From NCBI GenBank assembly GCA_016788785.1, contig JAEUSM010000012.1:1-64000 (forward strand): a stretch of 64,000 nucleotides of DNA, written 5' to 3'. Below are positions 24,458 to 26,281 of this stretch, one piece after another (the stretch's first letter is position 1; each line of letters opens with the position of its first letter). The notes beneath the pieces were generated by a model, which saw nothing but the letters and a program-made list of their open reading frames with translations, was not told the DNA's origin and searched no databases. The translations under genes were made by a program, and so were the position numbers. The DNA is from Candidatus Kapaibacterium sp. GTDB lineage: Bacteria; Bacteroidota; Ignavibacteria; Kapaibacteriales; JAEUSM01.

Positions 24458-24484
24458 AAAAAAAAAGCCTGATTCGCATCAGGC
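24458..24484 (-). terminator. Terminator of the CADD-like gene
   Basis: GCCTGAT (24467-24473) pairs with ATCAGGC (24478-24484) around TCGC; the A run at 24458-24466 reads as a T run on the minus strand. Confidence 0.9.
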
Positions 24485-24512
24485 TTTTCATTCAATTTAA
24501 AATTTTACTAGA

Positions 24513-25202
24513 TTAATTCAACGATGGAGATGAACAATATTTTTCGTAAACACCATCTAACAATAGATTTAAAGCATCTGCTGCTTCACGAGTTGCATCA
24601 AGTGCTATTTCTTTTTGAGAATCTGTTTTACAAAGTTCTACCAATGCTTCACGAGTAACAATTCTATGAATTTCATCAGCATGTTCATGAACTTGGAAAA
24701 ATTCTAATGCATCTTTAGTATCTAAATCATAATGTTTTTTCAGACCTTCAATTTTGGTAGTAGCAACTTCTGGCACTTGAGACTCATACGCATACAATGC
24801 AGCTAGTCCAACAGCAGGATTATCGTTTTTCGATAGATCTTTCAAAATTTTCACAGAAAGTTTTGTTTGAGCTGAATGATTACGAGTAAGCATCTCTTCT
24901 CGAGAGATTCCTAAGGAATCACCAAAACGTAACCAAAGTTCTGGGTGATTATTTTCACCTTGTTCTTCTTCAACTAAATTTTCCAATAGCATTTGACGAA
25001 TTTTAATGTCATCGCAATTAGCATGAGTTGCACTCACATATGTTGGAAAATTGTGAACATGGAGATAATATTCTTTTGCATATTCGCGAAGCATATCAAT
25101 AGTCAAAGCACCTTCGTTCCACATTTGGTAAAACGGATGTTGCAAAGCATGACGTTCTGCAATAATGCTATCGAGAGTCGTTAAAAATTCTTGGTTTGTC
25201 AT
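24513..25202 (-). CDS. CADD-family heme-oxygenase-like di-iron protein, candidate pABA synthase
   Basis: A 229-residue all-helical protein of the PqqC/TenA/heme-oxygenase-like fold. It resembles Chlamydia CADD (CT610), which makes para-aminobenzoate for folate by sacrificing its own tyrosine. With a constant offset of two residues, all metal ligands I recall for CADD are present: E79, H86, E140, H172, D176 and H179. Y25 and Y41 (tyrosines) and K150 match the reactive tyrosine and lysine positions. Motifs are EEEQGENNHPELW, YAYESQVPEVATTKIEGLK and FFQVHEHADEIHR. It is monocistronic, with its own promoter (25285-25255) and terminator. Function as a pABA synthase is inference from these residues. 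No pab or fol gene is in the window. Confidence 0.82.
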   Translation of the reverse strand: MTNQEFLTTLDSIIAERHALQHPFYQMWNEGALTIDMLREYAKEYYLHVHNFPTYVSATHANCDDIKIRQMLLENLVEEEQGENNHPELWLRFGDSLGISREEMLTRNHSAQTKLSVKILKDLSKNDNPAVGLAALYAYESQVPEVATTKIEGLKKHYDLDTKDALEFFQVHEHADEIHRIVTREALVELCKTDSQKEIALDATREAADALNLLLDGVYEKYCSSPSLN

Positions 25203-25254: not shown

Positions 25255-25285
25255 CAAAAATACTTCTTTTCAATGAATAATCAAA
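25255..25285 (-). promoter_or_regulatory. Bacteroidota-type promoter for the CADD-like gene
   Basis: On the minus strand TTTG (25285-25282), a 19-base spacer, and TATTTTTG (25262-25255) match the -33/-7 consensus fully, 52 bases before the start codon. Confidence 0.7.
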
Positions 25286-25309: not shown

Positions 25310-26281
25310 TTATTTCATTTCATTTACGACTTTATTAATAGCTATCGTAGCATTAATTGTCCCAGATGATATTTGCTTTTTTAAATCATTGACAAATTCA
25401 ATCCTTAATGAAGAATGAAAAAAGTACATAAAGGCTATAGAATGAAGCAAATCATCAAACCATTGTATTTCTTGTTCTCGTCTTCTTTGAGATACTATAC
25501 CAGTAGATAATATATGTGTATTAAATGAAGTAATATGATGAAATAAGTTTTCACAATCTGATGAATCTAATGAACTAAATGTTTGGACTAATGTTTCCCA
25601 TCCAGCAGTGGATGGAGTTAAAAATTTGACTGCACGTTGATATTCTGCCTTTGTTAGTGCAGAAGCCATCTTTTGATCTCCATCTGCTTTATTGACTAAA
25701 ATTATATCGCTTATTTCCGTTATTCCACGCTTAAAACCTTGTAATTCATCACCAGCACCTGCAATCATAAGAAGCAAAAACAAATCTGTCATTGATCGAA
25801 CGGTAATTTCATTTTGACCTACACCCACAGTCTCAATAAAAATATAATCATACCCAGCAGCCTCACAAAGTAAAATTGTTTCTCTCATCTTTTTAGTCAC
25901 TCCCCCCAAAGAACCACCTGAAGGACTTGGCCTGATAAAACAATTTTGCATCTGAGAAAGTGAGCTCATACGAGTTTTATCACCCAAAATTGAACCTTTG
26001 GAAATGGAAGAAGTTGGGTCTACTGCTAAAACAGCAACTGAATAACCATTTGAGCATAGATATGTTCCAAATGTATCAATGAATGTACTTTTCCCAACTC
26101 CAGGAATTCCAGAAATTCCGATACGTAATGATTTTGATGGAATTTGTAAACATAATTCTACTAATTGATTTGCTTTATAAGTATCAGTTTCTAAATTACT
26201 CTCAATGAGTGTAATTCCTTTTGATAATGCTCTTGAATTTTGAGAAAGAATGCCGTCAAAGAGTTCTTGAATTGTTTGCAT
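25310..26281 (-). CDS. meaB: Methylmalonyl-CoA mutase-associated GTPase MeaB
   Basis: A G3E-family GTPase chaperone that protects and loads B12 into methylmalonyl-CoA mutase. The P-loop GIPGVGKST is at about 58-66. AVDPTSSISKGSILGDKTRM, the IETVGVGQNE switch region, the NKADGD guanine-specificity motif and the RPSPSGGSLGGV segment are all typical. At 323 residues it matches MeaB/ArgK proteins. No mutase gene adjoins it; the gene is divergent from the Rossmann-fold gene at 26446. Minus-strand TACTTTTG at 26315-26308 fits a -7 element, without a good -33. Confidence 0.93.
   Translation of the reverse strand: MQTIQELFDGILSQNSRALSKGITLIESNLETDTYKANQLVELCLQIPSKSLRIGISGIPGVGKSTFIDTFGTYLCSNGYSVAVLAVDPTSSISKGSILGDKTRMSSLSQMQNCFIRPSPSGGSLGGVTKKMRETILLCEAAGYDYIFIETVGVGQNEITVRSMTDLFLLLMIAGAGDELQGFKRGITEISDIILVNKADGDQKMASALTKAEYQRAVKFLTPSTAGWETLVQTFSSLDSSDCENLFHHITSFNTHILSTGIVSQRRREQEIQWFDDLLHSIAFMYFFHSSLRIEFVNDLKKQISSGTINATIAINKVVNEMK

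Follow-up and report, generated by a model that had tools for sequence, protein, structure and literature searches.

The textbook source of pABA is chorismate, and an organism that loses the shikimate pathway would be expected to lose folate synthesis with it. A different origin has been described for the proteins CADD (CT610) of Chlamydia trachomatis and NePabS (NE1434) of Nitrosomonas europaea. In these, the side chain of the protein's own tyrosine (Tyr27 in CADD, Tyr25 in NePabS) is cleaved and oxidised to pABA, a lysine (152 in CADD, 159 in NePabS) provides the nitrogen, and each protein is used a single time (PMC11965152, PMC13108848). The NePabS reaction also requires Tyr41, with contributions from Tyr45 and Trp99 (PMC11965152). 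CT610 had been flagged for folate by a comparative study in 2007 (PMC1971073), and homologues have been listed in Rickettsia, Wolbachia, Chloroflexi and Sphingomonas (PMC11965152). Rickettsia make no chorismate, and their gene of the CADD family TIGR04305 is mostly degraded (PMC5615194). Aromatic amino acid synthesis is predicted to be lacking in a bacterium of the Bacteroidetes/Ignavibacteria/Chlorobi group from a hot spring (PMC6338057, which discusses OPB56 as well).

Here we analyse a CADD-type gene found in a 64,000-nucleotide stretch of DNA from Candidatus Kapaibacterium sp., of the order Kapaibacteriales; we refer to the stretch as the window. The original prediction presented the gene as a candidate pABA synthase outside Chlamydiae. 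The protein fits that description, but the claim is not new, as NePabS is characterised and further homologues are given in PMC11965152; both the kind of enzyme and its spread beyond Chlamydiae are already known.

A CADD-type protein with a complete active site

The gene runs from ATG to stop on the minus strand (24513-25202) and encodes a protein of 229 aa, P0001, identified by its TIGR04305 match, alignment and fold. In an NCBIfam profile search, P0001 scores 282.6 bits against TIGR04305 (fol_rel_CADD; cut-off 200), with PqqC (TIGR02111) as the next-best family at 63.2 bits. Its Pfam matches are TENA_THI-4 and Haem_oxygenas_2. Among PDB chains, phmmer retrieved NePabS (9pj4, 1.8e-49) and CT610 (1rcw, 3.5e-49), to which P0001 is 41% and 38% identical. 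An AlphaFold model (pLDDT 92.3) superposes on 1rcw_B with a Z of 32.2 and an rmsd of 1.1 Å over 214 residues, the structure-based alignment pairing residues 5-220 with 7-220. Profile score, identity and fold together bear out the predicted membership of the CADD family. The best named relatives, at 69-75% identity, come mostly from Candidatus Kapaibacterium, Ignavibacteria and Chlorobiota MAGs.

In the sequence alignment, CT610 numbering equals that of P0001 plus two, with no gap as far as H179/H181. E79, H86, E140, H172, D176 and H179 thereby fall on CT610 E81, H88, E142, H174, D178 and H181, which we take to be the CADD metal ligands, and this mapping fits the range of the structural alignment. 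The dimetal site of P0001 is complete, with three histidines and three carboxylates. Y25, Y41 and K150 fall on Y27, Y43 and K152, so the two-residue offset originally proposed for ligands, tyrosines and lysine is correct throughout; the tyrosine and lysine positions also hold when the AlphaFold model is aligned with 1rcw by structure. Across 52 full-length homologues, Y25, Y41, Y45, W90 and K150 are invariant.

Other oxidases of the heme-oxygenase-like (HDO) fold, namely PqqC, BesC, UndA and TenA, share their architecture with P0001 (Z 28.1 for PqqC) but are only 11-22% identical to it and reach at most 63 bits, against 282.6 for the CADD model. We rejected two of these identities outright: pyrroloquinoline-quinone synthase, as the PqqC score lies far below its cut-off of 240, and thiaminase II (TenA, TIGR04306), at 21.4 bits against a cut-off of 130.

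Relative to its two characterised homologues, P0001 is a hybrid at the metal-selecting positions, a feature that the original prediction did not mention. With CADD it shares the six ligands and the equivalents of Y27, Y43, K152 and Y141 (Y27, K152, Y141 and Y170 following the CADD numbering used in PMC11965152), but it has F168 where CADD has Y170, so its Mn dependence may differ. With NePabS it shares the sacrificial Tyr25 and the lysine, the essential Tyr41, Tyr45, Trp99 (W90 in P0001) and F177 (F168), whereas Y139, matching CADD Y141, replaces F148, and the 9-residue insert that NePabS has after position 62 is absent. The pair Y139/F168 corresponds to the F148Y variant of NePabS, which is cambialistic (PMC11965152). 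We therefore predict by analogy that P0001 is cambialistic too, with Fe/Fe and Mn/Fe about equally suitable. The same Y/F pair is common to all full-length homologues examined in the order, which extends the prediction to the order as a whole.

A gene with its own promoter and terminator, outside any folate cluster

The 107-nt gap upstream of the gene, between it and meaB, contains a Bacteroidota-type -33/-7 promoter on the minus strand, TTTG-N19-TATTTTTG (25255-25285). The window contains nine occurrences of this pattern where 3.6 are expected, and about 0.003 would be expected on the minus strand of the gap. A scan for sigma-70 promoters returned five against 5.5 expected, no excess; the Bacteroidota type is the relevant pattern for promoters here. 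Downstream lies an intrinsic terminator, also on the minus strand, with a 12-bp stem and a T-tract (24462-24489). Both the full promoter and the dedicated terminator had been predicted. The upstream neighbour meaB, for the methylmalonyl-CoA mutase-associated GTPase (25310-26281, minus strand), is given as context and probably does not belong to the pABA system. No folate gene cluster surrounds the CADD gene within the 64-kb window, and searches of relatives' loci with the organism's own FolP, FolB and FolK found no folate genes beside CADD. NePabS likewise lies outside any folate cluster. CT610 differs in this respect, and its host, unlike this one, is a parasite; the death-domain role of CADD is not implied for P0001, and nothing points to a host.

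The host genome retains folate genes but not the chorismate route

The draft host genome (2.97 Mb, 18 contigs, 99.45% complete) encodes FolP (TIGR01496, 284.7 bits), FolB and FolK, all above cut-offs. Family searches found no PF00425 chorismate-binding enzyme in it, hence no PabB, TrpE or MenF. PabA/TrpG was also absent, the two sub-cut-off matches lying in CarA- and GuaA-sized frames of 381 and 518 aa, as was PabC, since IlvE (427.7 bits against 279) accounts for the single Aminotran_4 protein. Chorismate synthase (AroC, PF01264), the shikimate gene that we examined, was not found by family search of the 18 contigs. The canonical pABA route is thus absent, and judging from gene content chorismate is apparently not made. 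That folate could be supplied with pABA without PabA/B/C, as first suggested, is supported by gene content and structural alignment, the activity itself being a prediction; the additional absence of chorismate synthase takes the evidence beyond that suggestion. In a genome without chorismate synthase or PF00425 enzymes, chorismate-derived menaquinone or ubiquinone should be missing as well.

Absences in an 18-contig draft might reflect assembly gaps or divergent pABA or aroC genes, CADD then being a redundant or conditional supplement, and one genome of the order (G418) does hold PabB alongside an intact CADD. We consider this very unlikely, given that the PF00425, TIGR00566 and PF01264 searches were positive in 14 of 14 control genomes and that the same absence recurs in 50 genomes of the order, single-contig ones included.

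The setting differs from those of the described systems. Nitrosomonas is expected to have chorismate synthase, which is missing here. Hosts of the Rickettsia TIGR04305 gene (frC) resemble this organism in having neither chorismate synthesis nor PabABC, but their locus is reported to be degraded and their folate synthesis incomplete (PMC5615194), whereas the gene described here is intact, in a genome that encodes FolB, FolK and FolP.

CADD across the order

We surveyed 123 genomes of the order, using raw counts uncorrected for shared ancestry. Full-length CADD occurs in 62, and in 50 of these (families f1, f2, f3, f4 and f56), among them the single-contig genomes G059, G043 and G416, both PF00425 and AroC are absent. 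Every full-length-CADD genome without PF00425 is also without AroC (50/50); the other 12 (f6, f57 and f58) have both. A simple exclusion between CADD and PabB across the order holds for PabB proper. Raw counts of PF00425 are a poor guide to it, since isochorismate synthase or TrpE makes up most of the matches sampled in CADD genomes (G275, G472, G474). PabB and CADD of any type coincide in two of the 123 genomes, G418 and G473 (Fisher p 2e-4, kinship uncorrected), and PabB proper tracks AroC in 12 of 13 cases, again uncorrected for shared ancestry.

The second of these genomes, G473, encodes a PabB-PabC fusion, and its CADD copy, on a long branch, carries Y25F, Y41F and K150F as well as W28L while keeping all six ligands. 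The pABA residues have thus been lost where PabB/PabC is present, and by sequence this copy is a natural control for the sacrificial residues. The copy itself (L080:1667-2350) is either decaying or has a new HDO function. A separate aberrant copy (L079:4786-5553) comes from G398, where PabB is absent; it has the changes E140K and D176E and, close to the metal site, an insert of 4 residues, and may be a gene in decay or the product of misassembly.

In a tree, a single clade (support 100/99) unites full-length CADD proteins from eight families of the order and includes the window copy, a topology consistent with old vertical inheritance. TIGR04305 members are scattered patchily across phyla, as they would be if the gene were a recent horizontal acquisition with no set role. 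Given the single clade and the gene's own promoter and terminator, we find this explanation hardly credible.

Not every genome with FolP has a recognised source of pABA. About 26-32 genomes, mostly of f5, have FolP but neither PabB nor recognised CADD, so absence of PabB alone is no proof of another internal source. In G448, G353, G450, G461-464, G419 and other f5 genomes, FolP is present, and PabB, CADD and a short form of CADD described below are all absent. Uptake of pABA or a further route must therefore exist in the order.

A divergent short subfamily

A short CADD-like protein of about 185-190 aa occurs in 16 genomes of f5 and f7, some copies ending at contig edges (L076:4835-5395, L071:4888-5445, L029:1495-2049 and others, from alignment A1). 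These proteins are about 25% identical to P0001, well under the TIGR04305 cut-off, and all 12 members scanned gave TIGR04305 matches below that cut-off. A profile of the subfamily finds CT610 at 2.7e-22 and PqqC at 0.005. Y25, Y41, Y45, W90 and K150 are kept in 12 of 12, as are the ligands with E/D exchanges, and PabB is absent from all 16 genomes. From their sequences, they are likely pABA synthases that annotation misses.

These patterns bear on whether P0001 might be a CADD-fold dimetal oxidase that now performs another oxidation, in an organism that imports pABA or folate. HDO enzymes are diverse in function (PMC13108848), some FolP-bearing members of the order have no known pABA route, and the G473 copy shows the fold persisting without sacrificial residues. 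Set against this, Y25, Y41 and K150 do not vary among 52 full-length homologues or among 12 short ones that are about 25% identical, the sacrificial residues are lost, among the sequences examined, only where PabB-PabC is present, and PqqC, BesC and TenA score far below the CADD model. We regard a changed function as improbable, and favour pABA synthesis.

Pairing of CADD with clpS

The genes for ClpS and CADD stand head to head in all 22 loci examined from families f3, f4, f56, f57 and f58. The total is 34 such loci when duplicates from two collections are counted (clpS at L085 5724-6077, L038 5583-5939, L033 5608-5907 and 31 others). The pair was not found in f1, the family of the window, in f2 or f6, or in the examined loci of more distant relatives. 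Apart from clpS, no shared CADD neighbour was seen in the examined loci of f4, f56, f57 and f58. In f2 and f3, a class-II glutamine amidotransferase-like gene lies directly 3' of CADD (L031:6675-7619; L035:6848-7768), followed by a NuoL/Mrp-like gene.

ClpS serves the Clp protease as its N-degron adaptor. Given that a CADD molecule acts a single time, it is reasonable to hypothesise that the pairing reflects a dedicated means of removing the spent protein. Alternatively, the two genes may be regulated together, or their order may be frozen. An N-terminal glycine is no classical ClpS signal. The NePabS reaction gives a fragment starting at Gly25 (PMC11965152), which counts against clearance by ClpS.

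Discussion

Family membership, residue conservation, fold and the presence or absence of pathway genes were established directly in this analysis; for the chemistry of P0001 we draw on its characterised homologues. On this evidence, P0001 very probably provides the pABA for folate as a dimetal oxygenase of the CADD/NePabS kind, one that sacrifices itself in a single turnover. In the proposed mechanism, the dimetal site (E79, H86, E140, H172, D176, H179) would activate O2, and a radical route through Y139, Y45 and W90 would lead to Y25. The Y25 side chain would be severed from the backbone, leaving glycine, and oxidised to the carboxylate, while K150 would donate its amino group and become aminoadipate. 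FolP would then couple the resulting pABA to pterin. The source of pABA would be tyrosine, necessarily imported, instead of chorismate. Because the PabABC genes and chorismate synthase are both missing, we infer that CADD is the sole pABA route of this organism and its relatives, and infer likewise its physiological role and the import of tyrosine by its hosts.

Searches of the open-licence literature turned up no earlier description of the free-living setting without chorismate or of the pairing with clpS: as far as they show, an intact CADD has not been described as the sole source of pABA in free-living bacteria that lack chorismate synthase, nor has a clpS-CADD pair. We tentatively suggest a wider scheme, of which we remain doubtful as a whole. 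A large free-living group would make folate free of chorismate, deriving pABA from scavenged tyrosine in a single-use enzyme; in most families of the order, the head-to-head clpS would be a sign that spent enzyme is cleared and recycled by a dedicated Clp (N-degron) pathway; and the subfamily of about 187 aa would do the same job.

A lineage of several families thus seems to retain folate synthesis without chorismate, by means of an enzyme destroyed for every molecule it makes. This opens a way to test, beyond pathogens, what suicide enzymes cost and why they are used; the homologues of the order offer a natural set of metal-selecting variants, and the clpS pairing gives a handle on the fate of the spent protein.
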